Source: Arthrobacter wenxiniae
Lineage (GTDB): Bacteria > Actinomycetota > Actinomycetes > Actinomycetales > Micrococcaceae
Reading direction: 5' to 3'
DNA length: 64,000 nucleotides
Assembly: GCF_013376105.1 (NCBI RefSeq)
Contig: NZ_JAAMFM010000004.1
Coordinates: 124,001 to 188,000, forward strand
Under the pieces are notes generated by a model. It was not told where the DNA came from, made no database searches, and saw nothing but the letters and a program-made list of their open reading frames with translations. Positions 34,713 through 55,526 of this stretch are shown here, piece after piece (the first letter of the stretch is position 1; each line of letters opens with the position of its first letter). The translations under genes were made by a program, and so were the position numbers.

Positions 34713-36488
34713 TCAAGACACGGCCATCGTGTCGATGAGGGTGCCGTCATCTTCGTAGTGTGTCGCGTTGGCGATGTCGCGGCCGGCAATGTAGCCGAAC
34801 GTCAGCGCCGGCCCCAGATTGATTCCCCCGGCGGGGTAGTGCCCGCCCATGACCGAGGCCTGATCGTTGCCCGCGACGTAAAGACCCTTGATGGGCTGGC
34901 CATCGTTGTCCAGGACACGGGAGCGTGAATCGGCCGCGAGGCCCGCGAAGGTGCCGAACGATCCCGGGACAATCCTGACGGCGTAGAAGGGTCCCTTTTG
35001 CAGGGGCCGCAGCGAGGGGTTGGGGGTGTTCTTGGGATCGCCCCCGTAGCGGTTGAATTCGCTGGCCCCCCGATCGAAGACGGGGTCGATGCCCTTCCGC
35101 GCGTTGCGATTGAATTCAGCGACCGTCGCGGCGAGCCCCTGCGGATCAATCCCGCAGGCTGCTGCCAATTCCTCAAGGGTCTTGCCCTTCTTGAGGTACC
35201 CGGAGCGCAGGTACGGGTAAAGCGGCACGGGCAGCGGCTTGGCCATCCCCAAAGGGAACTTACGGACGAACTCCGCGTCGGCGATCTGCCAGGCCTCCAC
35301 CGGTTCGCCCTCAGGGGTGGCGTTGAGCAGGCCTTCGACGTAGTCGTAGTAGCCATTGGCCTCGTTGACGAAGCGCTTGCCGTCCCGGCGGACGCCGATG
35401 CTGCCGGGCTTGGCCCGGTCCATGATGTGCGGGAAGGTTCCGGTGCGTCCGTTGCGGTACGGCACCAGGGAGACCGGGCACCAGGCGGCCGGGGACTCGA
35501 CATCGGACTCGAAGCGGGCTCCTACGGCTTGGGCCATGGTGATGCCGTCACCGGTGGTTTCCTTCGGCGCAAGTGTCCAGTGCTCAGTGCCGGTGGGGGT
35601 TTTGGGGAACAGCGCCTTGCGGCGGGAGACGTCGTTGGGGAAGCCGCCGGCGGCCAGGACGACGCCGCGGGATGCGTTGATCTGCAGCTCGCCTTCCGGG
35701 GAACTTACGACTGCGCCCGTCACCTTCCCGGACGCGTCCGTCAGCAGGTGCTTGGCTGGCGTGGAGACGCGGATCTCCACGCCCAGGTCATCGGCGGATT
35801 TCAGCAGCCGGCCCGTGAGCGCGGTGCCGTTGACCAGCTGCATGTTCCGCCGGTGGGTGAGGAGGTCCAGCACATGGAATGCAACCCGCCAGCCAGCGTG
35901 GAAGATGCCCCGGATGTTTCCTTGGGAGGCGGAGAGGAATTTTGTCAGGTCCGGTCCTGCCATAATGCCCATCCCCAGGAACGAGGTTTCGTAGAGCTGG
36001 TGCCGCATCTTGGCCCGGAGTTCAGGCTTGATCTTGCGTGCGTTGAACGGCTTGGGCCCCACGGACCGGTGTCCGGTGCCTGCGCCGGGAGTGCTGCCGT
36101 AGATGTCCTTGATCTTGGTTCCCGGCACAAACTGAAGGCTGGTTTTGTCCTGGAAGAAGCCGACCATATGCGGGACCGCCTCGAGGAATGCCTCCACCCT
36201 GTCTGCCTGGTAGTTCGGGCCGAGCCGGTGGCGCAGGTAGGTGCGGAACAGCTCGCGGTCCTCGTTGACGCCGTCGGCTTTGGCCAGCGGGTTGCCAGGG
36301 GTCCAGGCCCACCCGCCGGACCAGGACGTGGCGCCGCCGCAGACGTCGGCCTTGTCAACAACCACTACTTTCAGTCCGTGATAGGCGGCGGCCACGGCGG
36401 CAGACAGACCACCCGCGCCGGAGCCGACTACCAGGACATCGCAGTCCAGGCTCGGGAGGGCAGATGAAGGATTTGCTGGTGCAGTCAT
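34713..36488 (-). CDS. KstD-like FAD-dependent dehydrogenase
   Basis: This 591-residue flavoprotein belongs to the fumarate-reductase/3-ketosteroid-dehydrogenase superfamily. The FAD site is CDVLVVGSGAGGLSAAVAAA with GGATSWSGGWAW after it, and the C-terminal FAD-capping region is GGHYPAGGINLGPALTFGYI. Members introduce double bonds next to a ketone in cyclic substrates. It is the last gene of the operon that begins with the MFS carrier, 13 bp behind the aldo/keto reductase. In this setting I infer desaturation of an oxocyclohexane or cyclohexene carboxylate on the way to an aromatic acid. The ATG at 36488 gives a normal N-terminus (MTAPANPSSALP). Confidence 0.9.
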   Translation of the reverse strand: MTAPANPSSALPSLDCDVLVVGSGAGGLSAAVAAAYHGLKVVVVDKADVCGGATSWSGGWAWTPGNPLAKADGVNEDRELFRTYLRHRLGPNYQADRVEAFLEAVPHMVGFFQDKTSLQFVPGTKIKDIYGSTPGAGTGHRSVGPKPFNARKIKPELRAKMRHQLYETSFLGMGIMAGPDLTKFLSASQGNIRGIFHAGWRVAFHVLDLLTHRRNMQLVNGTALTGRLLKSADDLGVEIRVSTPAKHLLTDASGKVTGAVVSSPEGELQINASRGVVLAAGGFPNDVSRRKALFPKTPTGTEHWTLAPKETTGDGITMAQAVGARFESDVESPAAWCPVSLVPYRNGRTGTFPHIMDRAKPGSIGVRRDGKRFVNEANGYYDYVEGLLNATPEGEPVEAWQIADAEFVRKFPLGMAKPLPVPLYPYLRSGYLKKGKTLEELAAACGIDPQGLAATVAEFNRNARKGIDPVFDRGASEFNRYGGDPKNTPNPSLRPLQKGPFYAVRIVPGSFGTFAGLAADSRSRVLDNDGQPIKGLYVAGNDQASVMGGHYPAGGINLGPALTFGYIAGRDIANATHYEDDGTLIDTMAVS

Positions 36489-36501
36489 GTTCAGTGCTTT
36501 C

Positions 36502-37341
36502 TCAGTGGAAGTAGGTGTCGGAGTCCAGGCGCGGCGGCGCACCGGTTTCGAGTGCATCAATCGCGGCCATTTGCTGCCGGGTCAGGGCGAAACTGAAGAC
36601 GTCCAGGTTCTCGCGTTGGCGTTGGCTGTTCGCGGACTTCGGCACCGCCACGCGGCCGTGCTGCACGTGCCAGCGCAGGACGATCTGGGCCGGTGTCATG
36701 CCAAGCTCCCTGGCAGGGCCGCGCACAGCCGCCTGCTCCAGGAAACTCCCGTTGCGGCCCAAAGGGCTGTAGGCGGCAGTGACTATTCCGTGCTCGCGGT
36801 GGTAGGCCAGTTGGGCCGGTTGGCCGTGCTCGGGATCAACCTGTACCTGGTTCAGCGGGACGGGCAAGCAGGCCTCCTGAACGGCCTGCAGGTGCGCCGG
36901 TTTGAAATTTGAGACTCCCCAGGCCCTAATGGAGCCATCGTCGACGAGGTCCTGCAGGCCTTCGCAGGCTTCAACGAATCTCCCCTGGGCGGGGTTGGGC
37001 CAGTGAACCAGGAGCAGGTCCAGATACTCGGTTCCGAGCCGGTGCACCGACTTGCGGAAGGCCTCGCGCACACCGGTCCGGCTGTGCCACTGGGTGTTGA
37101 ACTTGGTGGTGAGGAACAGGTCCCCGCGGTCGATGCCGCTGCGGCGAATGCCCTCCCCCACGGCAGCCTCGTTGGCGTAGTTCTCGGCTGTGTCGATGTG
37201 CCGGTAGCCGTTGTTTATGGCTTGGCTCACCGTCGCGGCGGCGTCCTCACCCGTCAGGGGCCAGGTGCCCAGGCCGATGAGCGGTATGCGCACGTCCGGC
37301 GCGAGCTGCGCCGTCGTTAACTCTGCAGTGGTGCCGCTCAT
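36502..37341 (-). CDS. Aldo/keto reductase
   Basis: This 279-residue cytosolic NADPH-dependent TIM-barrel oxidoreductase shows the AKR tetrad: Asp and Tyr in HIDTAENYANEAAVG, Lys in LFLTTKFNTQ and His in LLLVHWPNPAQGR. The C-terminal cofactor motif is VAVPKSANSQRQRENLDVF. It belongs to the 2,5-diketo-gluconate-reductase-like group. Its ATG overlaps the stop of the TIM-barrel gene (ATGA), so translation is coupled. In this operon it may interconvert a keto and hydroxy group on a hydroaromatic intermediate; that role is inference. Confidence 0.93.
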   Translation of the reverse strand: MSGTTAELTTAQLAPDVRIPLIGLGTWPLTGEDAAATVSQAINNGYRHIDTAENYANEAAVGEGIRRSGIDRGDLFLTTKFNTQWHSRTGVREAFRKSVHRLGTEYLDLLLVHWPNPAQGRFVEACEGLQDLVDDGSIRAWGVSNFKPAHLQAVQEACLPVPLNQVQVDPEHGQPAQLAYHREHGIVTAAYSPLGRNGSFLEQAAVRGPARELGMTPAQIVLRWHVQHGRVAVPKSANSQRQRENLDVFSFALTRQQMAAIDALETGAPPRLDSDTYFH

Positions 37342-38207
37342 TTCACACCTGCCGCGTCAAGAGTTCCGGTCAGCCGCGCGCTGCCTGCCTGGGCCAGCAC
37401 GGCGTCCACACCTGATTTGAGCAGGCGCGCCCAGCCGAGCTCGCCGAGTTCCGCCACCCGCCGGTCCGAAGGTGTCTCCGCACTGACCGGAAGGCTGGCC
37501 GGAAGTGCGGCAACCGCCGCCACGAGGCCGAACTCGCCCTCGCCGGGAACGCCCCGCTCCGAGCGGGATTCGATGACGAGCTCCTCGCGGCTGCCTGGCC
37601 GTTCCGCCGGGCCGTCGCACAACTGCAGGAGCGGCACGAGGTCTGTGTTGGCGCGCAGCTCCTCCCACTGGGCAGCGGCGCCCTGACCGTTATAGCGGTT
37701 GAAGTGCAGGGTGTCCACCACGATCCGGCAGCCGGCCTGGCGGGCGATGTCCGCGGCCTGGGCGATCGAGGCGACGGGCTGGTAGGAGATCGCTTCCAGG
37801 GTGGGGGTGATCCCGAATCCGCGGCCGTCCTCGGTCATCCGGGCCAGCGTGCCGATCAGCCGGGCGCTGTCGGGGTCGGCACCGGCCACGGTGAGGGAGC
37901 TTGCCCTCAGGGCCTGGCCCGCTTCCATCATGCGCAGCCATGCTTCGCGCTGGTCGCTGCCGTCGAGCAGCAGGAATTCGATATCCCGGACGGTCACTCC
38001 GGTGTCCTGCATCCTGGACAATGTGTCGCGGAGCATCGGTGAGCCTGGCTGGAGGTTGTAGGGGCGTTCCGTGGGCGTCACTGGGCGCACCCGGGCGCCG
38101 ATGAAATCAAAGCCTGCCTGGGCGGCGATTCCCACCAATTCAGGCGGGGCGGTGTTCAGCAGGGACAGCTGGGCCAGGCCGATCGGCCTGTGCGCGTTTT
38201 CGGTCAT
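37338..38207 (-). CDS. TIM-barrel sugar-isomerase/dehydroshikimate-dehydratase-like protein
   Basis: This 289-residue protein belongs to the AP-endonuclease-2/xylose-isomerase-like TIM-barrel family. Metal-binding positions are plausible in TLEAISYQPV (Glu), IVVDTLHFNRYNG (Asp, His), LLQLCDGPAE (Asp) and the late Glu in PVSAETPSDRR. The family includes sugar epimerases, hydroxypyruvate isomerase and the metal-dependent 3-dehydroshikimate dehydratases that make protocatechuate. Its place beside an AroE-like dehydrogenase and a shikimate-type carrier makes the last function attractive but unproven. The start at 38207 overlaps the stop of the 53-residue ORF (ATGA), and it is coupled to the next gene in the same way. 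Confidence 0.85.
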   Translation of the reverse strand: MTENAHRPIGLAQLSLLNTAPPELVGIAAQAGFDFIGARVRPVTPTERPYNLQPGSPMLRDTLSRMQDTGVTVRDIEFLLLDGSDQREAWLRMMEAGQALRASSLTVAGADPDSARLIGTLARMTEDGRGFGITPTLEAISYQPVASIAQAADIARQAGCRIVVDTLHFNRYNGQGAAAQWEELRANTDLVPLLQLCDGPAERPGSREELVIESRSERGVPGEGEFGLVAAVAALPASLPVSAETPSDRRVAELGELGWARLLKSGVDAVLAQAGSARLTGTLDAAGVK

Positions 38208-38365
38208 GATTGCGCTCCGTCCAGGCACCGTTCGGTGTGTGGGGTGGCGCCTGACGTCAGGAGAGAGGCGATCCGCCGTGCTGCGTCGTAGCGGGGAGTC
38301 TTTGGGGCACGGCCGTGGCGGCCCAGTGTCTGGGGGCGGGCGGCGTGGCGTGTGTTCTGTTCCAT
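38204..38365 (-). CDS. Unannotated 53-residue ORF inside the operon
   Basis: The 167-bp gap between the Gfo/Idh gene and the TIM-barrel gene is filled by a 53-codon frame. It starts at the ATG at 38365 behind AAGGAACAGTA, which overlaps the stop codon of the upstream gene. It ends with TGA overlapping the ATG of the TIM-barrel gene (ATGA). The product starts MEQNTRHAARPQTLGRHGRA and ends SGATPHTERCLDGAQS. It is basic, soluble and has one cysteine. The precise fit and coupling on both sides argue for a real translated gene or a leader that couples translation. I recognise no family. Confidence 0.5.
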   Translation of the reverse strand: MEQNTRHAARPQTLGRHGRAPKTPRYDAARRIASLLTSGATPHTERCLDGAQS

Positions 38366-38374
38366 TACTGTTCC

Positions 38375-39502
38375 TTAGCCCGCAACCTGTGCGAGGGATC
38401 GTGTGCTTTCAGGCAGCCGGTCAAAGCGGACCGGGAGACCCGTGCGGGATGATTCGTAGACCGCCAGCAGTATGCGCAGGGCCTTCGTCGCGTCCTGGCC
38501 GGTGACCGCCGGTTCCCCGCCGTTCCTGAGGGAATGGACAAAATCGCGGACCTGCGCGGTGTGGTGTGGGATGAGCTGGCCGTTGATCGCGGTGAGGCTG
38601 ACGTTCGGGTCAGTTCCTTCGGGATAAGCAGGTTCGGTGCTGATGGCTCCGTCAACGGCCCACAGGTCCACGCGTCCGTCGCTGCCTTCCGGGAATTCGG
38701 TCAGGGAAGCGGAGGCCCCGCTCTCCCCCGTGACCCGGATCTGCACGCCCAGGCTGGGAGACACCGCCGTCGACGCTTCCAGGGTGGCCATGGCACCGGA
38801 GGTGAAGGTGATGACGGCGGTCGCTGAGTCTTCGACCTCGATGTTCGCGCCGTGCTTGTAGGTGTTGATCTTCCCGTAGAGCTCGGCCACGTCCCCCATG
38901 AACCACTGCAGCAGGTCGATGTAGTGGATGGCCTGGGTCATCAGCACCCCGCCACCGTCGCCGGCCCAGGTCCCGCGGCAGGCGTCGCGGGAATAGTACT
39001 CCGATTCGCGGTGCAACATCACCGAGCACTGGCCCATGATGGGCCGGCCCAGGGTGCCATCGTCGATCGCTGCGCGGATCCGCTGGGCTGCCGGCCAGAA
39101 CCGCCGCTGGAAGAGGACGCCCAGCTTCACGCCGGCGTCGTCGCAAGCTTTTAGCATGCGCTCTGCGGACGCCAGTTCAGTGGAGATGGGCTTCTCGCAG
39201 AGCACGTGGACTCCTGCGGCAGCGGCTTGGAGCACCACATCCTCGTGGGTGGGGTGTGGGGTGCAGACCGAGATGATGTCCAGGCCCAGGCCCAGGAGTT
39301 CCTGGACGGTGGTGACTGCTGCAGGGATTCCCCAGGCTTGGGCGGTTTCCTGGGCGCGTTGGAGGTCGATGTCGCAGACCCCCACGATGACGGCGTCGGT
39401 AAGGGCGCGGAACGCCTCCAGGTGGTTGCGGGAGATCGCCCCGCACCCAGCGATTCCGATGCGAAGGGGGCGTGAGGTGACAAGTGACGGGGTGATCATC
39501 AA
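38375..39502 (-). CDS. Gfo/Idh/MocA-family oxidoreductase
   Basis: This 375-residue cytosolic NAD(P)-dependent dehydrogenase has a Rossmann domain starting LRIGIAGCGAISRNHLEAF, the conserved EKPIS motif (HVLCEKPISTELASA), and a C-terminal alpha/beta domain with GGVLMTQAIHYIDLLQWFMG. The family oxidises ring hydroxyls of sugars, inositols and related polyols. Here it is the fourth gene of the hydroaromatic operon and could act on a ring hydroxyl of a quinate-like compound, which is inference. Length and motifs are normal. Confidence 0.92.
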   Translation of the reverse strand: MMITPSLVTSRPLRIGIAGCGAISRNHLEAFRALTDAVIVGVCDIDLQRAQETAQAWGIPAAVTTVQELLGLGLDIISVCTPHPTHEDVVLQAAAAGVHVLCEKPISTELASAERMLKACDDAGVKLGVLFQRRFWPAAQRIRAAIDDGTLGRPIMGQCSVMLHRESEYYSRDACRGTWAGDGGGVLMTQAIHYIDLLQWFMGDVAELYGKINTYKHGANIEVEDSATAVITFTSGAMATLEASTAVSPSLGVQIRVTGESGASASLTEFPEGSDGRVDLWAVDGAISTEPAYPEGTDPNVSLTAINGQLIPHHTAQVRDFVHSLRNGGEPAVTGQDATKALRILLAVYESSRTGLPVRFDRLPESTRSLAQVAG

Positions 39503-39565
39503 CGGGTGCCATCTTTCTGGTGCTGGTAGGAAATTGTGCTGCGGTCCGGCGGAGGCTGGTGCGGG

Positions 39566-40306
39566 CTAGTAGGTGGCCCGGCCGCCGGACAGGTCGAAGA
39601 CGGAGCCGGTGGTGTAGGAGGCCGCCGGCGAAACGATGAATTCGATGAGGGCGGCCGCTTCGGCGGGTGTGCCGAACCTGCCCATCGGGATCTTGGCGGC
39701 CTGGGCCGCCTGCTGTTCTTTCGGCACTTCGGCGAAGAGCGGGGTCACCACATTGCCAGGGGCGAGGGCATTGACGGTGACTCCGGACAATGCGAACTCC
39801 TTGGCCAGTGACTTGACCAGGCCCAGGATCCCGGCCTTGCTGGCAGAGTAGGCGGGCATATTGACCACGCCTTCCTTGCCCGCCGTCGAGGAGATATGGA
39901 GCAGCCGTCCATAGCCTGCCTTGGCCATCCCCGGCAGGACGGCCTGCGAGACAATGAACGCCCCTGTCAGGTTGATCTTCATGATGCGTTCGAAGTCTTC
40001 AACCGATGTGGCGGCTGCCGGGGCGACGGGGCCCAGGATGCCGGCGCAGTTCACCACGGCGTCGAGCCCTCCCATCTCCAGGGCCGCTGCAGAGACGGCC
40101 GCCGCAACCGATGCCGGGTCGGTGACGTCCATGGCAAGCGATGAGCTGCCCGGTGCTTTGGGCCAGGTGCCCGGGCGCAGGTCAGCGCCTACCACCGTGG
40201 CGCCGGACGTCCTGAGGCGTGCCGCCGTCGCGCGCCCGATGCCGCTGGCTGCTCCGACCACCAGGCAGCGGGACTCGGCGATGGTGCTCGGTGCCTGGGA
40301 ACCCAT
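39566..40306 (-). CDS. SDR-family oxidoreductase
   Basis: This classical 246-residue short-chain dehydrogenase has the cofactor motif CLVVGAASGIGRATAARL, NCAGILGP, catalytic Ser in LLHISSTAGKEG, and YSASK (MPAYSASKAGILGLVKSL), with PGNVVTPLF and the usual C-terminal GSVFDLSGG. It is intact, unlike the other SDR genes in the window. Its ATG follows immediately on the TAG stop of the AroE-like gene, so the two are coupled. It probably oxidises a hydroxyl of the hydroaromatic substrate handled by this operon. Confidence 0.93.
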   Translation of the reverse strand: MGSQAPSTIAESRCLVVGAASGIGRATAARLRTSGATVVGADLRPGTWPKAPGSSSLAMDVTDPASVAAAVSAAALEMGGLDAVVNCAGILGPVAPAAATSVEDFERIMKINLTGAFIVSQAVLPGMAKAGYGRLLHISSTAGKEGVVNMPAYSASKAGILGLVKSLAKEFALSGVTVNALAPGNVVTPLFAEVPKEQQAAQAAKIPMGRFGTPAEAAALIEFIVSPAASYTTGSVFDLSGGRATY

Positions 40307-41215
40307 CTAGCCGACTGCCTTTCGAAACGTGGCCAGCATGCGCTCGGCATCGGCGGGGATGCCCGTGAAGAGCTCGAAGGCGGCGGCTGCCTGCCCCACG
40401 ACCATGCGTCCGCCGTCGAGGACGGCGCAGCCCTTGCCGCGGGCGGCCTTGATTAGCCCGGTTTCGAGCGGCCGGTAGATCACGTCCGCTACCCACAGCC
40501 CGGAGTGGATCAGGTCGGGATCCACTGGCATACCGGGGTGACCTGTCATGCCGATCGGCGTTGAGTTCACCAACCCGTCGGCTTCCCGGATGCTTCCGGC
40601 GAGAGCATCCGCCCGGGTCACCGACAGTCGGCTGTCCGGAAAGTGCGGGGCCAGCCGGGCGGCCAGGGCCTCGGCTCGGGCCGGCTCGATGTCGGCGATG
40701 ACCAGGTGCCGGGTTCCGGTGCTGAGGAGCCCGAAGGCCACCGCCGCACCGGCTCCTCCCGCGCCGATCTGCACCACGGAGTCAGTCGCGGCCGATGGGA
40801 GGCCGGCCTTGAGGCCGCTGATGAAACCGGTGTGGTCCGTGTTGTGCCCCACTGCCTTGCGGTCGTGAAAGGTGATGGTGTTGACGGCCCCGAGGATCCG
40901 GGCTTCGGGTGAAAGCTCGTCCAGGCCGTCCTGGACCAGTTGCTTGCTCGGGTGGGTGACGTTCAGTCCGTCGAATCCGAGATCGGCTGCGTACCGAACC
41001 AGCGCCGCGGACCTTTCGGCAGGTTGTCCGATGGCGTCCAGATCGATGACGCGGTAGGTGTAGGCCAGGCCCAGTCTGTCGGCTTCCGCTTCGTGCAGGC
41101 CCGGGGTGAGGGATCCGCCGATACCGGAACCGAGCAGGCCCACCACGAACCGGTGGTTGATATCGGCTTCACGCGGCCGGAACATCTGGGTGCCTGCCAG
41201 GGTTTGCTGACTCAT
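40307..41215 (-). CDS. Shikimate/quinate dehydrogenase (AroE-like)
   Basis: This 302-residue cytosolic enzyme has the shikimate dehydrogenase fold. It shows GLLGSGIGGSLTPGLHEAEA at the substrate site, the catalytic Lys in NVTHPSKQ, Asp in GHNTDHTGF, and the NAD(P)-binding QIGAGGAGAAVAFGLLSTG. The GGSLTP variant and the catabolic context suggest the YdiB/QuiB/QsuD type, which oxidises quinate or shikimate with NAD+, rather than biosynthetic AroE. The gene overlaps the MFS gene stop (ATGA) and is followed directly by the SDR gene. Direction and substrate are inferred from the neighbours. Confidence 0.9.
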   Translation of the reverse strand: MSQQTLAGTQMFRPREADINHRFVVGLLGSGIGGSLTPGLHEAEADRLGLAYTYRVIDLDAIGQPAERSAALVRYAADLGFDGLNVTHPSKQLVQDGLDELSPEARILGAVNTITFHDRKAVGHNTDHTGFISGLKAGLPSAATDSVVQIGAGGAGAAVAFGLLSTGTRHLVIADIEPARAEALAARLAPHFPDSRLSVTRADALAGSIREADGLVNSTPIGMTGHPGMPVDPDLIHSGLWVADVIYRPLETGLIKAARGKGCAVLDGGRMVVGQAAAAFELFTGIPADAERMLATFRKAVG

Positions 41216-43702: not shown

Positions 43703-43785
43703 GTCTTCAGAATGTACCCTGTACCTGAACATCGAACCGACAGGGGCTCTGGATTTCAGGGATTACCCCACCGGACCGGCACAGG

Positions 43786-47834: not shown

Positions 47835-48740
47835 CTACGACTTGTATTCATCCGCCGCAACCGCATCAAGCACCAGCGAGCGGAACCATCGCTGCGCCTG
47901 CGAGAGGCTGGCCTCGCGCCGCGTGTACAACTCCACTGGTGTGCTCTGCCCGGGCCAGGGCAGCTCGGCGATGCGAAGGCGGGGAAACCAGCCGCAGAAC
48001 ACCCCCGCTACATGCCGGGGCAGCAGGACGACCAGATCCGTCGCCTCGAGCACGGCGGGCACGGTGCCGTATTCCTCCATGGTCAGCACGACCTGGGACA
48101 TCAAGTCGTGTTCGGTCAGCGCCTGCAAAGGATAGACGTGCCCGCCACGGGCGGAGACCCGCACAAAGCGCCTCCCCTCGAACATGTCAGGCCCGGTCGC
48201 GGGCAGTGGATGCGACCCGGACGACAGAGCCACGTATTCGACCGAACGCACGTGCGTCCTCCACAGCCGCGGTGTGGCGATCCGCGACACGGTCAACGCC
48301 AGATCGATGGTGCCGCGGATCAGCCCGCTCTCGACCTCGTCCGAATCGAGCCGTTCCACCTGTATTCGCGGATCGGCGCCGACCCGGCCGAGGGCGGTCA
48401 TGATCGGTGGGAGGAACGTCTGCTCGCCGATCGAGGTGAGTCCGACGACGAGTTCGCCGCTGAATCCGGTCGGTTCGAACACGTCCGATCCCATGACGGT
48501 CGCGTCTATTTGTGCCAAGGCGTTGTGTAGGGGCCCAAACAGTTGCGTCGCCTTCGCGGTCGGCACCATGTCGTTCCCCTCGCGACGGAACAGCTCGTCG
48601 CCGAACCGCTCCCTGAGCCGCTTCAGGGAATAACTGACCGTGGGCTGTGTCACGTGCAGTCGCCTGGCGGCGCCCGTGACACTGCGCAGCTCGTAGAGCG
48701 TGACGAATGTCCGGAGCAGGTTGAGGTCTGTGAACGTCAT
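47835..48740 (-). CDS. LysR-family regulator of the protocatechuate 4,5-cleavage operon
   Basis: This 301-residue regulator has the HTH LRTFVTLYELRSVTGAARRL, HVTQPTVSYSLKRLRERFGD, ELFRREGNDMVPT. The ligand-binding domain shows GELVVGLTSIGEQTFLPPIM and later LPRHVAGVFCGWFPRLRI. It belongs to the NodD/PcaQ-like side of the family. It is divergent from ligJ with 145 bp between start codons, the classic arrangement for an activator responding to a pathway intermediate. The effector is not readable from sequence; protocatechuate, gallate or their ring-cleavage products are the candidates. Confidence 0.92.
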   Translation of the reverse strand: MTFTDLNLLRTFVTLYELRSVTGAARRLHVTQPTVSYSLKRLRERFGDELFRREGNDMVPTAKATQLFGPLHNALAQIDATVMGSDVFEPTGFSGELVVGLTSIGEQTFLPPIMTALGRVGADPRIQVERLDSDEVESGLIRGTIDLALTVSRIATPRLWRTHVRSVEYVALSSGSHPLPATGPDMFEGRRFVRVSARGGHVYPLQALTEHDLMSQVVLTMEEYGTVPAVLEATDLVVLLPRHVAGVFCGWFPRLRIAELPWPGQSTPVELYTRREASLSQAQRWFRSLVLDAVAADEYKS

Positions 48741-48743
48741 GAC

Positions 48744-48780: not shown

Positions 48781-48885
48781 TGGACCACAGTGGCGAACAC
48801 GCCTAAAGTCAGTTTGGGGCAGCACTGAACCAACGAAGTGCAGCTGCTCTCACACCGCTTACACTCAGTGACAAGGACGACACGC

Positions 48886-49914
48886 GTGATTATCGACATC
48901 CACGGCCACTACACCACAGCTCCAACACAGCTCGGAGCCTGGCGTGACCTGCAGATCGCATTCACTGAAGGACGCGCGGACGCTCCTGACCCTTCGACCC
49001 TGCGCATCGGCGATGACGACATCCGTGAGACCATCGAGGCCAACCAGCTCAAGCTCATGAACGAGCGCGGCAGCGACGTCACCGTATTCAGCCCTCGTGC
49101 CTCGTTCATGGCGCACCACATCGGAGACCTCGCTGTGAGCGAGACCTGGGCCCGGATCTGCAACGACCTGTGCGCCCGCGTCAGCGAGCTCTACCCCGAA
49201 CGCTTCCTCATGGGGGCGATGCTCCCCCAGTCCCCCGGTACGGATCCCGCGACGAGCGTCGCCGAGCTTACTCGTGCCGTCGAGGAACTCGGCGCCGTCA
49301 CCGTGAACCTCAACCCCGACCCGTCCGGCGGCAACTGGACGTCCCCGCCGCTGACCGATCGCTCGTGGTACCCGATCTACGAGAAGCTCGTCGAATACGA
49401 GATCCCGGCGATGGTGCACGTCAGCACGTCGTGCAACCCGGCCTTCCACACGACCGGAGCGCACTACCTCAACGCCGACACCACCGCGTTCATGCAGTTG
49501 CTCCAGGGCGATCTGTTCCGAGACTTCCCCGAGTTGAAGCTCGTAATCCCCCACGGCGGCGGCGCCGTTCCCTACCACTGGGGGCGCTTCCGTGGTCTCG
49601 CAATGGCGCTGGGCAAGCCCGTAATCGAGGAGCACCTGCTGAACAACGTGTTCTTCGACACCTGCGTGTACCACCAGCCGGGCATCGACCTGCTCACCAA
49701 GGTCGTCCCGACCGAGAACATCCTCTTCGCGAGCGAGATGATCGGCGCCGTGCGCGACGTCGACCCGCGCAGCGGACACTACTTCGACGACACCAAGCGG
49801 TACGTCGACGCCACCACGAACCTGAACGACGCGCAGCGCGCGCAGGTGTTCGAAGCCAACGCCCGCCGTGTCTACCCAAGGCTTGACCGCGCCCTTACTG
49901 CGCGCGGACTCTGA
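48886..49914 (+). CDS. ligJ: 4-oxalomesaconate hydratase
   Basis: This 342-residue cytosolic amidohydrolase-superfamily enzyme adds water to 4-oxalomesaconate to give 4-carboxy-4-hydroxy-2-oxoadipate. The sequence follows LigJ closely: IIDIHGHYTTAP with the metal-binding HxH, TVFSPRASFMAHHIGD, NLNPDPSGGNWTSPPLTDRS, MVHVSTSCN, FHTTGAHYLNADTTAFMQ, LVIPHGGGAVPYHWGRFRGL and VFFDTCVYHQPGIDLL. The GTG at 48886 with AAGGACGACACGC before it matches the family start; the ATG at 48838 lacks one. It is the first gene of the operon, 12 bp before ligK. Confidence 0.95.
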   Translation: MIIDIHGHYTTAPTQLGAWRDLQIAFTEGRADAPDPSTLRIGDDDIRETIEANQLKLMNERGSDVTVFSPRASFMAHHIGDLAVSETWARICNDLCARVSELYPERFLMGAMLPQSPGTDPATSVAELTRAVEELGAVTVNLNPDPSGGNWTSPPLTDRSWYPIYEKLVEYEIPAMVHVSTSCNPAFHTTGAHYLNADTTAFMQLLQGDLFRDFPELKLVIPHGGGAVPYHWGRFRGLAMALGKPVIEEHLLNNVFFDTCVYHQPGIDLLTKVVPTENILFASEMIGAVRDVDPRSGHYFDDTKRYVDATTNLNDAQRAQVFEANARRVYPRLDRALTARGL

Positions 49915-49926
49915 GAGGACCATCAA

Positions 49927-50619
49927 ATGCGACTGAACACCCTCGGCATCGTGCGCACCAACATCGAACGTCCGGATCCCACGGACGTCAAACGGCTTTC
50001 GCAGTTCGGCGTCGCCACTATCCACGAGGCGATGGGGCGGGTCGGGCTCCTGCGCCCCTACATCAGGCCGGCCTACACCGGCGCCAAGCTCTGTGGTCCG
50101 GCAGTGACCGTGCTGCTACAGCCTGGTGACAACTGGATGTTCCACGTCGCCGCCGAGCAGGTGCAGGAAGGCGATGTGATCGTCGCCGGCTGCACCACCG
50201 AAAGCGAGGACGGCTTCTTCGGTGAGCTGCTTGCCACCTCGCTGACCGCCCGCGGCTGCAAGGGCCTGGTGATCGACGGTGGTGTCCGCGACGTCGCCGA
50301 TCTGGAGAATATGGATTTCCCGGTGTTCTCCCGCGCTGTCAACGCCAAGGGCACGGTCAAGGCCACCCTCGGATCGGTGAACGTCCCCGTAGTGGTCGCG
50401 AACGCCGTGGTGAACCCTGGCGACGTGGTCGTGGCCGACGTCGACGGCGTCGTGGTTGTCCCGCGCGAGCTTGTCGGAGCGGTGGCAGACGCCAGCCAGA
50501 AGCGCGAGGATAACGAGGAAGCCAAACGCGTGAAGTTCCGTGAGGGCGTCTTGGGCCTGGATATCTACGGCATGCGAGGGCCGCTCGCCGCCGCCGGCCT
50601 CGAGTACGTGGAGAAGTGA
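49927..50619 (+). CDS. ligK: 4-carboxy-4-hydroxy-2-oxoadipate aldolase (RraA-like)
   Basis: This 230-residue cytosolic class II aldolase of the RraA/HMG-aldolase fold cleaves 4-carboxy-4-hydroxy-2-oxoadipate to pyruvate and oxaloacetate, and usually also decarboxylates oxaloacetate. It shows GVATIHEAMGRVGLLRPYIR, LLQPGDNWMFHVAAEQVQEG, the metal/substrate loop GFFGELLATSLTARGCKGLV and DGGVRDVADLENMDFPVF with the catalytic Arg-Asp. GAGGACCATCAA precedes the ATG. It lies between ligJ and ligI and completes the lower pathway. Confidence 0.95.
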   Translation: MRLNTLGIVRTNIERPDPTDVKRLSQFGVATIHEAMGRVGLLRPYIRPAYTGAKLCGPAVTVLLQPGDNWMFHVAAEQVQEGDVIVAGCTTESEDGFFGELLATSLTARGCKGLVIDGGVRDVADLENMDFPVFSRAVNAKGTVKATLGSVNVPVVVANAVVNPGDVVVADVDGVVVVPRELVGAVADASQKREDNEEAKRVKFREGVLGLDIYGMRGPLAAAGLEYVEK

Positions 50620-50621
50620 CC

Positions 50622-51557
50622 ATGGCGCACGGAGACACCACGGGAGGCTTCGAGAAGTCCGCCGGCTGGCTCGACTGGTACGACGGCCCCACCAAGCCCA
50701 CGTTCCGCCTGCCGGCCGGCGCGGTCGACGCGCACTGCCACGTGTTCGGGCCCGGGGAGCGGTTCCCTTACGCCCCCGAGCGGAAGTACACCCCGTGCGA
50801 TGCCTCGGCGGAGCAGCTCTTCGCGCTGCGCGACCACCTCGGCTTCGACCGCAACGTGATCGTCCAGGCGACCTGCCACGGCGCCGACAACCGGGCACTG
50901 GTCGATGCGCTGCAGCGCAGCGGCGGCCGCGCCCGCGGCGTCGCCACGGTCCGCCGCGACGTGACCGAGGAGCAGCTGGCCGGGCTGGACGCGGCCGGCG
51001 TCCGCGGGGTCCGGTTCAACTTCGTCAAGCGCCTCGTCGACCGGGTGCCCACCGACTCGCTCGAGGAGATCGTCGGGAAGATCGCGCCGCTCGGCTGGCA
51101 CGTGGTCATCTACTTCGAGGCCGAGGACCTGCCGGAGCTCTACGACTTCTTCTCCGCGATCCCGACCGACGTCGTCGTCGACCATATGGGCCGACCCGAC
51201 GTGTCCAAGGACCCGGACGGCCCTGAGTTCGCACTGTTCCTGCGCTTCATGCGCGAGAACACCAATGTGTGGACCAAGGTCTCCTGCCCAGAGCGCCTGT
51301 CCGTCACCGGCCCGCACGCTCTCGACGGCCAACAGCACGCCTACACCGACGTGGTGCCGTTCGCCCGACGCGTGGTCGAGGAGTTCCCCGACCGCGTGCT
51401 GTGGGGAACCGATTGGCCCCACCCCAACCTCAAGGACCACATGCCCGACGACGGGCTGCTGGTCGACTACATCCCACGGATCGCGACGACGCCCGAGCTC
51501 CAGCAGAAGCTGCTCGTGGACAACCCGCGCCGCCTCTACTGGCAAGAAGGAGCATGA
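50622..51557 (+). CDS. ligI: 2-pyrone-4,6-dicarboxylate hydrolase
   Basis: This 311-residue cytosolic amidohydrolase-superfamily lactonase opens 2-pyrone-4,6-dicarboxylate to 4-oxalomesaconate. The HxH motif is in AVDAHCHVFGPGERFPYAPE, with RGVRFNFVKRLVD, VVDHMGRPDV, VWTKVSCPERLS and the metal-binding Asp in VLWGTDWPHPNLKDH. These are LigI features. I choose the ATG at 50622 behind GGAGAAGTGACC; a GTG at 50616 overlaps the ligK stop and is less likely. The following dioxygenase gene starts one base after the stop codon. Confidence 0.94.
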   Translation: MAHGDTTGGFEKSAGWLDWYDGPTKPTFRLPAGAVDAHCHVFGPGERFPYAPERKYTPCDASAEQLFALRDHLGFDRNVIVQATCHGADNRALVDALQRSGGRARGVATVRRDVTEEQLAGLDAAGVRGVRFNFVKRLVDRVPTDSLEEIVGKIAPLGWHVVIYFEAEDLPELYDFFSAIPTDVVVDHMGRPDVSKDPDGPEFALFLRFMRENTNVWTKVSCPERLSVTGPHALDGQQHAYTDVVPFARRVVEEFPDRVLWGTDWPHPNLKDHMPDDGLLVDYIPRIATTPELQQKLLVDNPRRLYWQEGA

Positions 51558-51558
51558 C

Positions 51559-52860
51559 ATGGCACTCGACAAGCCGTACAAGGACGTTCCCGGCACGATC
51601 ATCTTCGACGCGGAGATGGCCCGCAAGGGATACCACCTCAACCAGTTCTCGATGTCGCTGATGAAGCCCGAGAACCGCAGGCGATACCTGGCCGACCGCG
51701 AGGCGTACCTCGATGAGTGGCCCCTTTCACCCAAGCAGCGCCAGGCTGTGCTGGACATGGACCTCAACGCCATGATGGCCGAGGGTGGCAACATCTACTT
51801 CCTGAGCAAGATCGGCGCCACGCACGGCCTGAGCTTCCAGCAGATGGCCGGCTCCATGACTGGCATGTCCGAGGCCGCCTACCGCGACATGATGATCGGC
51901 GGCGGACGCCGCCCCGAGGGCAACCGCCTCAAGGACCTCGACGGCTGGGTCCCGCCGGGGCCGCGCGAGAAGTCCGCGACCATGCGCGGGAACGCCCCGG
52001 CGAAGTACACGTCGGCGCTGTTCACCTCGCATGTCCCGGCCATCGGTGCCGCGATGGACCTCGGCAAAACCGAGGAGCCGTACTGGAAGAAGGTGTTCTG
52101 CGGGTACGAGTGGACCCGAAAGTGGGCCAGGGAGAATACGCCCGACGTCGTCATCCTCGTCTACAACGACCACGCCACGGCCTTCGACGCCTCGATCATC
52201 CCCACCTTCGTGCTCGGCACCGGGGCAGAGTACCCGGTCGCGGACGAGGGCTACGGCCCCCGCCCTGTGCCCGACGTGAAGGGCTACCCGGAGTTCGCCG
52301 CGCACATCGCGCAGTCGGTCATCCAGGATGACTTCGACCTCACCCTGGTCAACGAGATGGTCGTGGACCACGGGCTCACCGTGCCGCTCTCGCTCGTCTT
52401 CGGCGACGTCGAGGAATGGCCATGCAGGGTCATCCCGCTGGCCGTCAACGTGGTGCAGTACCCGGTGCCTTCCGGCCGCCGCTGCTACGAGCTCGGCAGG
52501 GCCCTTCGCCGCGCCCTCGACAAGTGGGACGGCCCGGAGCTCAACGTGCAGATCTGGGGCACCGGCGGCATGAGCCACCAGCTCCAGGGTCCGCGCGCCG
52601 GCCTCATCAATGAGGAGTGGGACAACGCGTTCCTCGACCACCTCATCGCCGACCCGCTTGGCCTGACCGAGTGGGATCACATGGAGTACGTCGATGAGGC
52701 GGGCTCCGAGGGCATCGAGCTCGTCGACTGGCTGATCGCGCGCGGCGCGATGGACGACCAGTTCGGCGGCGAGGCGCCTTCTGTTGACCACCGGTTCTAC
52801 CACGTGCCCGCGTCGAACACCGCCGTCGGCCACCTTGTTCTCACGAACCCGACCGACTGA
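51559..52860 (+). CDS. ligAB: Fused protocatechuate/gallate 4,5-dioxygenase (LigA-LigB order)
   Basis: This 433-residue extradiol dioxygenase combines both subunits of the LigAB type. Residues about 18-115 are the small alpha domain (KGYHLNQFSMSLMKPENRRR, GGNIYFLSKIGATHGLSFQQ, MAGSMTGMSEAAYRDMMIGG). Residues about 130-430 are the catalytic beta domain, with iron ligands His in SALFTSHVPAIG, His in VYNDHATAFDAS and Glu in LINEEWDNAF, and the catalytic His in EMVVDHGLTVPL. It opens the ring of protocatechuate, and possibly gallate, at the 4,5 bond. In gallate dioxygenases of the DesB/GalA type I recall the catalytic domain first, so the order here is reversed. The start at 51559 follows AAGAAGGAGCATGAC. 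Confidence 0.93.
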   Translation: MALDKPYKDVPGTIIFDAEMARKGYHLNQFSMSLMKPENRRRYLADREAYLDEWPLSPKQRQAVLDMDLNAMMAEGGNIYFLSKIGATHGLSFQQMAGSMTGMSEAAYRDMMIGGGRRPEGNRLKDLDGWVPPGPREKSATMRGNAPAKYTSALFTSHVPAIGAAMDLGKTEEPYWKKVFCGYEWTRKWARENTPDVVILVYNDHATAFDASIIPTFVLGTGAEYPVADEGYGPRPVPDVKGYPEFAAHIAQSVIQDDFDLTLVNEMVVDHGLTVPLSLVFGDVEEWPCRVIPLAVNVVQYPVPSGRRCYELGRALRRALDKWDGPELNVQIWGTGGMSHQLQGPRAGLINEEWDNAFLDHLIADPLGLTEWDHMEYVDEAGSEGIELVDWLIARGAMDDQFGGEAPSVDHRFYHVPASNTAVGHLVLTNPTD

Positions 52861-52885
52861 CCGCATCCGCAACAAAGGAGCCCCC

Positions 52886-53839
52886 ATGACTGACAAGATC
52901 CGTGTGGCCGTCGTCGGCGCCGCAGGCGCCTTCGGCATGAAACATCTCGACGGCCTGATCAACATCCCCGAGGCCGAGGTGACCGTCGTCAGCGGCACGC
53001 GGCTCGAACCGACCCAGGCAGTCGCGGCGAAGTACGGCGTAGCCAACGCCGTCGTCGGGCTCGACGCCGTGCTCGAGCGCGACGACGTCGATGCCGTCAT
53101 CCTCGCCACGCCCACGGGTCTGCACGCCTCGCAGACGCAGGAGGTCCTCAAGGCCGGCAAGCACGTGCAGGTCGAGATCCCGCTCGCCGACTCGCTCGCC
53201 GACGCCAAGGCGGCGCTCGCCGCGGCCGAGGCGTCCGACCGCGTCGCCATGGTGGGCCACACGCGGCGGTTCAACCCCTCGCACCAGCTCGTGCACAACC
53301 GGATCGCCGAGGGCTCGTTCAACGTGCAGCAGATGGACGTGCAGACGTACTTCTTCCGCCGCACGAACACGAATGCCAAGGGCGAGCCGCGCTCCTGGAC
53401 CGACCACCTGCTGTGGCACCACGCCGCGCACACTGTCGACCTGTTCGCCTACCAGGCGGGCAGGATCGTGCAGGCGAACGCGATCCAGGGCCCCGTCAAC
53501 CCGGAGCTGGGCATCGCGATGGACATGTCGATCCAGCTCAAGAGCGAGTCCGGGGCGATCTGCACCCTGTCCCTCTCGTTCAACAACAACGGCCCGTTCG
53601 GCACGTTCTTCCGCTACATCGGAGACACCGAGACGTACATCGCGCGCTACGACGACCTCTTCAACGGCCGCGAGGAGCCGATTGACGTCTCGAAGGTGGC
53701 GGTGAGCATGAACGGCATCGAGCTGCAGGACCGCGAGTTCGTCAGCGCGATCCGCGAGGGGCGCGAGCCGAACTCGTCGATCCGCCAGGTCATCGACTGC
53801 TACCGCGTGCTCGGCGCGCTTGAGAAGCAGCTGGCGTGA
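52886..53839 (+). CDS. ligC: 4-carboxy-2-hydroxymuconate-6-semialdehyde dehydrogenase
   Basis: This 317-residue Gfo/Idh/MocA-fold enzyme oxidises the ring-cleavage product (as its hemiacetal) to 2-pyrone-4,6-dicarboxylate with NAD(P)+. It starts IRVAVVGAAGAFGMKHLDGL, has VEIPLADSLADAKAALAAAE, the family TDHLLWHHAAHTVDLFAYQA, and ends near 317 residues like LigC. AAAGGAGCCCCC precedes the ATG at 52886. It is 25 bp behind the dioxygenase gene, and its stop overlaps the next start (GTGA). Confidence 0.92.
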   Translation: MTDKIRVAVVGAAGAFGMKHLDGLINIPEAEVTVVSGTRLEPTQAVAAKYGVANAVVGLDAVLERDDVDAVILATPTGLHASQTQEVLKAGKHVQVEIPLADSLADAKAALAAAEASDRVAMVGHTRRFNPSHQLVHNRIAEGSFNVQQMDVQTYFFRRTNTNAKGEPRSWTDHLLWHHAAHTVDLFAYQAGRIVQANAIQGPVNPELGIAMDMSIQLKSESGAICTLSLSFNNNGPFGTFFRYIGDTETYIARYDDLFNGREEPIDVSKVAVSMNGIELQDREFVSAIREGREPNSSIRQVIDCYRVLGALEKQLA

Positions 53840-54810
53840 GGCTGCCCCCCACCGGCCTGGGCTGCATGTCGCTGAGCCACGCGTACGGCGTCCCCCCGTC
53901 GCGTGACGAGGGGGTGGCGGTGCTGCGCGCAGCACTCGATGAAGGCATCGGGATGCTCGACACGGCAACACTGTACGGCGGCGGCCGCAACGAAGAGCTT
54001 GTAGGTGCTGCGATCGCGGGGCGCCGCGACGAGGTCTTCCTGGCGAGTAAGTGCGGGATGGCGTCCGTCGACGGCGTGAAAGTCATCGATGGACGCCCCG
54101 GCACGCTGCGCGCACAGGTCGATGCTTCGCTGAGCCGCCTTGGCGTCGATTACATCGACCTGTACTACCTTCACCGGTGGGACAAGAAAGTGCCGATCGG
54201 CGACAGCGTCGGCGCGCTGGCCGAGATGGTCGCCGCGGGCAAGATCGGCGCAATCGGCCTGTCCGAGGTGTCGGTCGCGCGACTGCGCGAGGCGCAGTCA
54301 ATCACCCCTATCGCGGCCGTGCAGAACGAATACTCGCTGTGGAGTCGCAATGCCGAGCTGGGCGTGCTCGACGCCACTCGCGAGGACGGCGTGACCCTGG
54401 TTGCGTTTTCGCCGGTCGCAAGGGGTTTCCTCGCCGATGCGATCAAGGACCCAGGTAAGCTGGCCCCAAACGACATCCGCCGCAGCATGCCGCGCTTCCA
54501 GCCCGAGCACTGGGGTGCGAATGCGACGCTGCTGGCCTCTTGGCGCGAGCTGGCCGCGGAGGCCGGCTGCACCCCAGCACAGCTCGCGCTGGTCTGGCTG
54601 CTCTCCCGCGGCGATCACGTTCTGCCGATCCCGGGAACAACGAGCGTCGCGCACCTGCGTGAGAACATGGCGGCGGCCGACCTCCCTGTCGACGGCGCGC
54701 TGCTGACGCGGGCCGGCGAGCTGATTGGCACGGCCACCATCTCTGGCGCGCGCTATGCGCCAGCATCTGCTGCCGAAGTGGACGCCGAGACTTTCGAGGA
54801 TGCCGCATGA
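53836..54810 (+). CDS. Aldo/keto reductase in the lig operon
   Basis: This 324-residue cytosolic AKR, of the YajO/Tas-like group, has the tetrad in MLDTATLYGGGRNEELVG (Asp, Tyr), VFLASKCGMAS (Lys) and LYYLHRWDKKVPIGD (His). The C-terminal cofactor motif is VLPIPGTTSVAHLRENMAAA. The GTG start at 53836 overlaps the ligC stop, and its own stop overlaps the next ATG (ATGA), so it is fully embedded in the operon. No aldo/keto reductase belongs to the textbook 4,5-cleavage pathway. It may feed an upstream aldehyde or ketone, or remove a toxic semialdehyde. Confidence 0.92.
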   Translation: MRLPPTGLGCMSLSHAYGVPPSRDEGVAVLRAALDEGIGMLDTATLYGGGRNEELVGAAIAGRRDEVFLASKCGMASVDGVKVIDGRPGTLRAQVDASLSRLGVDYIDLYYLHRWDKKVPIGDSVGALAEMVAAGKIGAIGLSEVSVARLREAQSITPIAAVQNEYSLWSRNAELGVLDATREDGVTLVAFSPVARGFLADAIKDPGKLAPNDIRRSMPRFQPEHWGANATLLASWRELAAEAGCTPAQLALVWLLSRGDHVLPIPGTTSVAHLRENMAAADLPVDGALLTRAGELIGTATISGARYAPASAAEVDAETFEDAA

Positions 54811-55526
54811 GGGCGATCTCGTCGATGGCCACCCGCCACGTTCTCGCCGACCTCGCTGAAGCTGCCGCCCGTGCCGGGCTACCGCTTCTGCAGCTCGAAT
54901 CCGTAGGCGGAGTGAACGCCGCCCAGCGGGTGGCCGCCGGCGAGCCGTTCGACCTTGTGTTCCTCGCCGAGTACGCCCTCCAACGCCTCGCTGCCGAGGG
55001 GCACGTCGATCCGGCATCCATCGCCCCGATCGTACTGTCGGAGGTCGCCGTAGGCGTTGCAGCACGCAGCGCCGATGCAGCCACATGTTCCGAAGGCACG
55101 GCCTTTGCGAATGCCGACGAGCTTCGCGGCGCCCTGCGCGCGGCATTCCGCATCGGATATTCCACCGGGCCGAGCGGCACAGAGCTGTTGCGAATGATGG
55201 ACCAGTGGGGCATGACCGATGAGATCAGCGATCGGCTGGTGCAGGCCCGTCCAGGCGTACCCGTGGCGCGCCTGCTCGCCGAGGGAGAGGTCGATCTCGG
55301 CCTGCAGCAGCTCAGCGAACTGGTCGGACAACCCGGCGTGTGCATCCTCGGCGTTCTCCCGGCCGACTGCGCGATTATCACGGTCTTCGCGGGTGCTGTC
55401 GCGGCATCCTCCAACAACGCGGCTCGTGCTGCGGAGGTGTTGGCCTTCTTCCGCTCGGATCTCTCGGCATCGATCAAGTCGTCGCACAGTTTTCGCGCGC
55501 CCCGAGGCCCTGCCCCGTCGGATTGA
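54807..55526 (+). CDS. Signal-less ModA/PBP-like protein ending the lig operon
   Basis: This 239-residue protein resembles type II periplasmic binding proteins of the molybdate-binding kind: SMATRHVLADLAEAAARAGL, AGEPFDLVFLAEYALQRLAA, VGYSTGPSG-like IGYSTGPSGTELLRMMDQWG, and EGEVDLGLQQLSELVGQPGV followed by ILGVLPAD. It has no signal peptide or lipobox, so it should stay in the cytosol. It is coupled to the preceding gene by an ATGA overlap. A cytosolic protein of this fold in a ring-cleavage operon may bind or isomerise a pathway acid. The pathway otherwise lacks a visible 4-oxalomesaconate tautomerase (LigU/GalD), so this is one candidate. Confidence 0.8.
   Translation: MRAISSMATRHVLADLAEAAARAGLPLLQLESVGGVNAAQRVAAGEPFDLVFLAEYALQRLAAEGHVDPASIAPIVLSEVAVGVAARSADAATCSEGTAFANADELRGALRAAFRIGYSTGPSGTELLRMMDQWGMTDEISDRLVQARPGVPVARLLAEGEVDLGLQQLSELVGQPGVCILGVLPADCAIITVFAGAVAASSNNAARAAEVLAFFRSDLSASIKSSHSFRAPRGPAPSD

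Follow-up and report, generated by a model that had tools for sequence, protein, structure and literature searches.

The described systems closest to the locus analyzed here are quinate/shikimate catabolism (qsu in Corynebacterium glutamicum, quiC in Pseudomonas putida), the chc aromatisation of cyclohexanecarboxylate by ChcB, ChcC1 and ChcC2, the pcm/lig operon of protocatechuate 4,5-cleavage, and the front end of myo-inositol breakdown, formed by IolG and IolE. The locus consists of two operons with LysR-type regulators, contained in a 64,000-nucleotide stretch of Arthrobacter wenxiniae DNA (GCF_013376105.1, contig NZ_JAAMFM010000004.1, positions 124,001 to 188,000 of the forward strand), which is referred to as the window and supplies all coordinates. 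Operon 1 codes for an MHS-family metabolite/H+ symporter, an AroE-like dehydrogenase, an SDR oxidoreductase, a Gfo/Idh/MocA dehydrogenase, a TIM-barrel metal enzyme (TIM), an aldo/keto reductase (AKR) and a KstD/ChcC2-like flavin desaturase (FAD1), whereas operon 2 carries the lig genes (Table 1). Operon 1 belongs to a widespread type of cluster with no assigned function, built around TIM and FAD1 and in many cases including Gfo/Idh, AroE and an MHS carrier. The two operons may form one catabolic unit, leading from hydroaromatic acids to protocatechuate and beyond, a proposal to which about even probability is given.

Operon 1 shares with the qsu/quiC route an AroE/QsuD-type dehydrogenase, the active site of dehydroshikimate dehydratase and, in the proposed scheme, protocatechuate as end point. 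Unlike the enzyme of that route, the window TIM, of 296 residues, lacks a fused HPPD-like second domain, stands apart from QuiC and usually coexists with it, and is paired with a flavin desaturase. In the chc pathway, too, a ring-hydroxyl dehydrogenase acts ahead of a KstD-like desaturase whose substrate is an oxocyclohexene carboxylate, but FAD1 reaches only 507 bits with the ChcC2 model, whose cut-off is 900; a dehydratase, and not ChcC1, would probably give the first unsaturation here, and the proposed product is protocatechuate, whereas chc gives 4-hydroxybenzoate. The myo-inositol front end likewise relies on a Gfo/Idh enzyme for oxidation of a ring hydroxyl and on a TIM barrel for dehydration of the ketone; the locus differs in that the IolG score is under cut-off, the TIM family profile matches the IolE structure weakly (E = 0.003), and a desaturase and AroE are added. 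Operon 2 has LigJ, LigK, LigI, a fused LigAB and LigC together (48838-55526) and, by this gene content, is an ordinary pcm/lig operon; it departs from the type in ending with an AKR and a solute-binding-fold protein.

A shared block carrying both operons

The window from 34739 to 55657 is collinear with one stretch of G162, a genome from a different genus in the same family. The seven aligned pieces are 88.6-96.5% identical, and a short eighth match follows at 56470-56648 (89%). The flank at 24416-31151, on the other hand, matches the congener G021 at 93% identity, and G021 has no TIM. TIM was absent from all 22 congeners searched (E ≤ 0.001), and none of the 22 has a fused LigAB above cut-off, G012 and G014 showing partial LigB-type matches. 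Because of the block in G162, and of congeners lacking TIM and fused LigAB, both operons appear to have arrived, or to have been kept, as one unit of about 21 kb; as judged from these alignments, they are linked by common descent of a single block. Of the other stretches, L020 holds operon 1, FAD2 (a second KstD-like flavoprotein), the second regulator gene LysR2 and the start of LigJ, and L010 holds operon 1 and FAD2, without pcm genes in that stretch.

A preliminary description of this DNA had named the genes of both operons with their strands, placed operon 2 about 5 kb from the first regulator gene and suggested that the operons belong together. Family matches confirm the genes and strands one by one, and LigJ starts 5.1 kb from the upstream edge of LysR1 (43732). 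That the operons belong together is borne out by the shared syntenic block and by the presence of a protocatechuate ring-cleavage gene in every FAD1-positive genome of the sample described below. As indicated by family matches that span most of each gene and by the conservation of the block in other genomes, the grouping is more than chance.

Identity and distribution of TIM and FAD1

The TIM family profile matches Lmo2234 (6e-27), IolI (9e-17) and QuiC1 (5hmq, 1.3e-16). A phmmer search of solved structures with the TIM sequence alone gave no match, nor was there any NCBIfam match for the window TIM, and the Gemmobacter TIM scores 22 bits with the QuiC model (cut-off 1200). Besides Leu97 and Leu136, the QuiC active-site set given in the available text of PMC7442255 comprises the eight polar residues R64, E134, D165, H168, Q191, S206, R210 and E239. 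By alignment, the window TIM keeps all eight polar residues, as R81, E145, D172, H175, Q202, S221, R225 and E251. Among 106 TIM sequences, duplicate genomes included, the equivalents of E134, D165, H168, R210 and E239 are kept in all, while the Q191 position holds Q in 101 and H in 5, the R64 position R in 29 and K in 10, and the S206 position S in 64 and A in 38. R178 is found in 106/106 TIM sequences, and is replaced by G, A or S in six QuiC sequences, from which TIM is separated in a tree by a 100/100 branch of length 3.39. The absence of the QuiC Arg64 from TIM, suggested by a first alignment, was dropped when a later one put R81 of the window protein at that position.

Of 39 genomes to which the loci L007-L052 led (L032 left out, at least six genomes shared with the family sample below), 35 have the QuiC dehydratase domain alongside TIM; two gave no match and two a match to the other domain only. 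No match to the dehydratase domain was found in the window genome, or in the genomes of L020, L042, L045 and L048. Given the conserved QuiC catalytic residues, TIM is expected to act on hydroxyketones as a metal-dependent dehydratase or isomerase. Calling it simply "the" 3-dehydroshikimate dehydratase would probably be wrong, because a separate QuiC-type enzyme is carried by 43 of the 45 FAD1-positive genomes; as no QuiC-type gene was found in the window genome, TIM may do both jobs there. An identification of TIM as the 3-dehydroshikimate dehydratase, to which the preliminary description pointed, is in keeping with the catalytic residues, but less so with the separation from the six QuiC sequences and with the coexistence in both genome sets; the accompanying doubt that the usual quinate route is at work is consistent with the evidence. 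TIM as a simple replacement of QuiC was rejected, the two being together in most genomes.

FAD1 belongs to NF009476 (PRK12839), a family of FAD-dependent oxidoreductases with no named substrate. Its best substrate-named model is that of ChcC2 (4-oxocyclohex-2-ene-1-carboxylate 5-dehydrogenase, NF053677); scores with 3-ketosteroid dehydrogenases are 446 bits and less, and with the saturated-ketone desaturase ChcC1 320 bits, again under cut-off. The roles of the KstD key residues Tyr119, Tyr318, Tyr487 and Gly491 are given in the available text of PMC5348764. FAD1 residues Y404, Y575 and G579, at the ketone-handling positions of the last three, are invariant in 88/88 FAD1-type sequences. K384 is also found in all 88; 31 FAD2-type sequences have K or R at this position, and Leu stands there in 7p18 and in two ChcC2 sequences, the only ones obtained for the alignment from six ChcC2 loci. 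The correspondence between residues of 7p18 and the KstD key residues is the one that we take to be correct. K384 is a candidate contact for a carboxylate or a hydroxyl. The identification of FAD1 as a true ChcC2 was dropped, in view of its score and of the occurrence of ChcC2 above cut-off, as a separate protein, in 25 of 295 family genomes, that of the window not included.

These 295 genomes of the family Micrococcaceae were classified as FAD1-positive by a match at E ≤ 1e-150, and as TIM-positive by a match of at least about 195 bits, counting the split matches in G240 and G265; the TIM figure is not the tally of 97 obtained at E ≤ 1e-15, the remaining matches being near 60 bits and mostly in QuiC-like frames of 600-700 residues. 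FAD1 is present in 45 genomes, and TIM in 45/45 of these. TIM occurs alone in two genomes, G157, where the FAD1 frame appears split (L185), and G080, whose TIM is divergent. PcaH is found in 40 of the 45. The other five are G000 (the genome of the window), G144, G173, G240 and G265, and each has a fused LigAB above cut-off, a gene reaching this score in only 10/295 genomes; it lies about 100-120 kb from FAD1 in G173, G240 and G265, and much farther in G144, hence the close linkage seen in the window is not general. PcaH or fused LigAB is therefore present in 45/45 FAD1-positive genomes vs 149/250 others (Fisher p = 1.7e-9), and a QuiC-type dehydratase in 43/45 vs 117/250 (p = 6e-11), both p-values ignoring shared ancestry and genome size.

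Gene neighbourhoods were compared for 101 TIM-bearing loci: 47 chosen on TIM alone, 13 hand-picked plasmid loci (14 plasmid loci had been picked by hand out of 121 and 113 records) and 41 family stretches centred on FAD1/TIM matches. Six duplicate-genome loci were removed from this count, in which further duplicates may remain, and L025, L096 and L184 were excluded for want of a TIM row meeting the length filter. Of the 101 stretches, 95 include a FAD gene with at least 40% identity, and in 86 such a gene is within 2.5 kb of TIM; the figures are 43 and 37 for the 47 loci chosen on TIM alone. An AroE homologue is found in 57/101, AroQ in 27 and QuiC in 10; by chance, the 3 AroE-like genes of the 4.33-Mb window genome would place one in about 1.4% of random 20-kb stretches. 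The 60 Micrococcaceae loci, window excluded, have FAD in 59, Gfo/Idh (≥40% identity) in 51, AroE in 40, FAD2 (≥55% identity) in 14, QuiC in 5 and AroQ in 3, and pcaH or lig in none by the same filter, L020 showing part of LigJ only. The Bradyrhizobium group (n = 23) has AroQ in 22, FAD in 20, AroE in 7 and pcaH or lig in 6, and the other 18 loci FAD in 16, AroE in 10, Gfo in 6, QuiC in 5, AroQ in 2 and pcaH or lig in 2.

Single loci also bring the same genes together. In annotated records, pcaGHCD of Paracoccus aminovorans is accompanied by a QuiC-type gene, FAD and TIM, and Gemmobacter, Antarctobacter and Marinovum have a QuiC-type gene, AroE, a tricarboxylate-type carrier, FAD and TIM. L048, a Bradyrhizobium metagenome-assembled genome, has FAD, AroQ, TIM and LigJ-K-I-AB-C within one 20-kb stretch, and in L052 (Azospirillum) a TIM truncated by the stretch edge lies near lig genes. 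Genes of the lig or pca sets are near TIM or FAD1-type genes in L048, L052, L036, L041-L044, L089 and L096, and TIM and QuiC share one cluster in L087, L089, L091, L093, L031, L144, L146, L158, L170 and L171. Clusters of this type thus carry AroE, AroQ, QuiC, pcaGH or lig in other phyla as well, and the first operon is not one that never stands with protocatechuate genes, a pattern which the preliminary description had named as evidence against its proposal.

Other proteins recur in these clusters. A flavoprotein whose best models, both under cut-off, are mycofactocin-OYE and BaiCD (L140, 11661-13727, -, and like loci) is located between Gfo/Idh and TIM in many Micrococcaceae clusters, and is absent from the window. 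Beta- and alphaproteobacterial clusters (L086, 11348-11959; L090; L092) have a NIPSNAP-family protein encoded between FAD and TIM; in L028 (9272-9982) such a protein is encoded immediately before a TIM gene. L095 (11381-12037, +) and Bradyrhizobium loci conserve a protein of about 218 residues between AroQ and TIM, for which neither Pfam nor NCBIfam gave a match. Directly 3' of TIM, L047 has a catechol-type intradiol dioxygenase (9754-10722, +; BLAST only).

Proposed route and competing explanations

In the proposed unit, the MHS carrier would import a polyhydroxycyclohexane carboxylate, and AroE, SDR or Gfo/Idh would oxidise one ring hydroxyl to a ketone. TIM would then dehydrate the hydroxyketone, in the manner of 3-dehydroshikimate dehydratase and inosose dehydratase, and FAD1, like KstD and ChcC2, would abstract two hydrogens from the cyclohexenone so formed; the dienone would tautomerise to protocatechuate, to be converted by LigAB, LigC, LigI, LigJ and LigK to pyruvate and oxaloacetate. 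Substrate, step order and product are the parts of the route that we infer. The nearly constant pairing of an enone-preferring desaturase with a dehydratase suggests that the latter supplies the enone.

On a 3,4,5-trihydroxycyclohexane carboxylate, C7H12O5, such as dihydroshikimate, oxidation, dehydration and desaturation would give C7H6O4, the formula of protocatechuate. Both quinate and shikimate are plentiful among the acids of plants, and dihydroshikimate can be formed from quinate through reduction by lactic acid bacteria. The existence of dihydroshikimate is reported in the available text of Carr et al. That the substrate itself is a dihydroshikimate-type acid is doubtful; other saturated acids might serve, and FAD2 may add a second desaturation for less hydroxylated ones.

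TIM and FAD1 would form a branch parallel to the QuiC route, with no need of 3-dehydroshikimate. Such a scheme would explain that the pair mostly comes in addition to QuiC, that it is set among AroE and carriers, and that the product genes are PcaH or LigAB and not gallate dioxygenases. More tentatively, and with clearly less than an even share of belief, the pair might be an undescribed module, crossing phyla, that converts the keto form of saturated hydroaromatic acids to protocatechuate and bypasses 3-dehydroshikimate. Among the matches listed in searches of the open-access literature, in the parts of the texts available, there was no description of the cluster, of the TIM and FAD1 pair, or of aerobic reclaiming of saturated ring acids; none of those listed (for one query, the best 10 of 2,046) dealt with ChcC2 or 4-oxocyclohexanecarboxylate enzymes. 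The locus would represent a variant of hydroaromatic catabolism to protocatechuate, with aromatisation based on a desaturase. If true, the route would provide an aerobic sink for reduced quinate derivatives, and a function for NF009476, so far named FAD-dependent oxidoreductase by NCBI. The cluster offers a cheap and specific test, requiring two enzymes, one keto acid and one strongly absorbing aromatic product.

Several observations weigh against this route. All 160 QuiC-positive genomes have protocatechuate genes, and only two FAD1-positive genomes lack QuiC, so that the link to protocatechuate could be carried largely by QuiC; at the genome level it is largely not independent of it. Lig genes are nearby in 3 of the 5 loci from genomes without QuiC (the window, L020 and L048), and such genomes could use TIM as an ordinary dehydroshikimate dehydratase. 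AroQ, present in 22/23 Bradyrhizobium-group loci, points to 3-dehydroshikimate as an intermediate there, and the FAD of this group is mostly nearer FAD2. In Bosea, Phyllobacterium and Rhodococcus, FAD and TIM are found with other carriers and no AroE in the stretch, while the Novosphingobium plasmid locus L096 has a FAD1-type gene near pcaGH and no TIM in the stretch. A catechol-type intradiol dioxygenase identified by family scan directly 3' of TIM in L048 (10397-11290, +), in a cluster which also has lig genes, fits poorly with a simple protocatechuate-only product. In FAD1 itself, the position of KstD Tyr119 is occupied by I153, and AKR and FAD2 have no assigned place in the scheme.

Some of these observations would fit the ordinary quinate/shikimate route, in which TIM, with its single domain, would act as 3-dehydroshikimate dehydratase and AroE as quinate/shikimate dehydrogenase, while FAD1 would serve some side substrate. 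This explanation, which we hold to be rather improbable, accounts for the eight QuiC polar residues of the window TIM, for the match of the family profile to QuiC1, for the five genomes without a QuiC dehydratase-domain match, and for AroQ, in some loci AroE, adjoining TIM in Bradyrhizobium. It is opposed by the occurrence of TIM and QuiC together in 43/45 and 35/39 genomes, and within one cluster in the ten loci named above: TIM tracks FAD1 and does not replace QuiC. The tree, R178, and the lack of an NCBIfam or adequate QuiC model match also argue against it.

Operon 1 might, alternatively, degrade a cyclitol or sugar acid unrelated to protocatechuate, and be close to the pcm operon by chance. 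Gfo/Idh, the TIM barrel and AKR do resemble inositol-type catabolism, with a Gfo/Idh match to IolG (150 bits, under the cut-off of 355) and a TIM profile match to IolI, and the Bosea, Phyllobacterium and Rhodococcus stretches show no AroE; the shared 21-kb block, the 45/45 co-occurrence, the lig or pca genes near TIM or FAD1-type genes in several loci, and the AroE, AroQ and QuiC neighbours make this explanation unlikely. Slightly less probable still is a gallate route, with FAD1 dehydrogenating 3-dehydroshikimate at C4-C5, in analogy to KstD, and LigAB-type enzymes cleaving the gallate: on chemical grounds 3-dehydroshikimate is a cyclohexenone arranged as a KstD/ChcC2-type enzyme needs, and the best substrate-named model of FAD1 is an enone desaturase, but TIM is left without a role, LigC and LigI belong to families serving protocatechuate and not gallate, and the LigAB model is matched at E ≤ 1e-50, a threshold which more distant gallate dioxygenases may escape, in only 8/45 FAD1-positive genomes, against 40/45 for PcaH, for which reason gallate was dropped as a general product.

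Genes of the two operons and their surroundings

Table 1. Features of the two operons in the window, with the family or structure matches on which each name is based.
Feature	Coordinates	Strand	Matches and remarks
FAD1, KstD/ChcC2-like flavin desaturase	34713..36560	-	NF009476, 1066.7 bits (cut-off 940)
Aldo/keto reductase (AKR)	36502..37341	-	PF00248
TIM-barrel metal enzyme (TIM), proposed dehydratase	37338..38228	-	PF01261
Gfo/Idh/MocA dehydrogenase	38375..39502	-	PF01408/PF22725; candidate ring-hydroxyl dehydrogenase
SDR oxidoreductase	39566..40306	-	PF13561; candidate ring-hydroxyl dehydrogenase
AroE-like quinate/shikimate dehydrogenase homologue	40307..41215	-	NF009201 (PRK12549), 380 bits (above cut-off, 235)
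MHS-family metabolite/H+ symporter	41212..42627	-	TIGR00883, 348 bits (cut-off 443)
LysR1, LysR-type regulator	42800..43732	-	PF00126 + PF03466; upstream of operon 1, same direction
FAD2, second KstD-like flavoprotein	44631..46394	+	PF00890; between the two regulators, divergent from operon 1
LysR2, regulator	47835..48740	-	PF00126 + PF03466; divergent from operon 2
LigJ, 4-oxalomesaconate hydratase	48838..49914	+	PF04909; PDB 2gwg, 571 bits
LigK, 4-carboxy-4-hydroxy-2-oxoadipate aldolase	49927..50619	+	TIGR02798, 412 bits (cut-off 304.5)
LigI, 2-pyrone-4,6-dicarboxylate hydrolase	50616..51557	+	PDB 4d8l, 363 bits
LigAB, fused protocatechuate 4,5-dioxygenase	51559..52860	+	NF009912, 877 bits (cut-off 837)
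LigC, 4-carboxy-2-hydroxymuconate-6-semialdehyde dehydrogenase	52784..53839	+	PmdC 9azo, 466 bits; PF19858; match begins at about 52889
Second aldo/keto reductase	53836..54810	+	PF00248; operon 2
Solute-binding-fold protein	54807..55526	+	PF13531; final gene of operon 2

Co-transcription of operon 1 is likely, since MHS/AroE and TIM/AKR overlap by 4 bases each and AroE and SDR abut; a promoter and terminator scan gave no more sites than shuffled sequences. The likely start of TIM is the ATG at 38207, where relatives begin in an alignment of starts, and that of FAD1 an ATG near 36488. The MHS carrier, probably the uptake route for the acid, has as its next named relative PRK09952, a shikimate transporter (290 bits, under the cut-off of 538). 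The AroE-like protein scores 229 bits with the quinate/shikimate dehydrogenase 3jyo, the two being identical in the alignment at what we take to be the shikimate-binding Ser, Thr, Lys, Asn, Asp and Gln; with NF010631, quinate/shikimate dehydrogenase (NAD+), it reaches 244 bits, under the cut-off of 515. All under cut-off are the best models of SDR, which are those of FabG (196 bits), followed by that of the cis-4-hydroxycyclohexanecarboxylate dehydrogenase ChcB2 (156 bits), as well as the nearest named models of AKR, 2,5-didehydrogluconate reductases, and the NF009477 match of FAD2 (610 bits, cut-off 758). AKR is not seen in several clusters of the operon 1 type, and LysR1 homologues adjoin the cluster in many Micrococcaceae loci.

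In operon 2, a longer LigAB frame opens at 51265, and the NF009912 match spans its residues 99-529. A LigU-type isomerase was not recognised among the genes of this operon, no search having been aimed at LigU. The solute-binding-fold protein, for which inspection by eye showed no signal peptide, may serve the pathway as an enzyme or helper and not as part of a transporter. DNA-level similarity with the lig loci of G222, G144 and G173 extends into its gene.

Between LysR1 and FAD2, a LysR gene remnant in two reading frames (43777-44177, +) resembles the intact LysR gene of L010 (1608-2513, -). Just past the shared block, a fragment at 56723-57166 (-) is about 55% identical to the C-terminal 150 residues of ChcC2-type desaturases. 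An open reading frame of 216 residues adjoins LysR2 (47052-47702, +), and its DNA is kept beside lig operons, at about 71% identity in G144 and G173 and 87% in G222.

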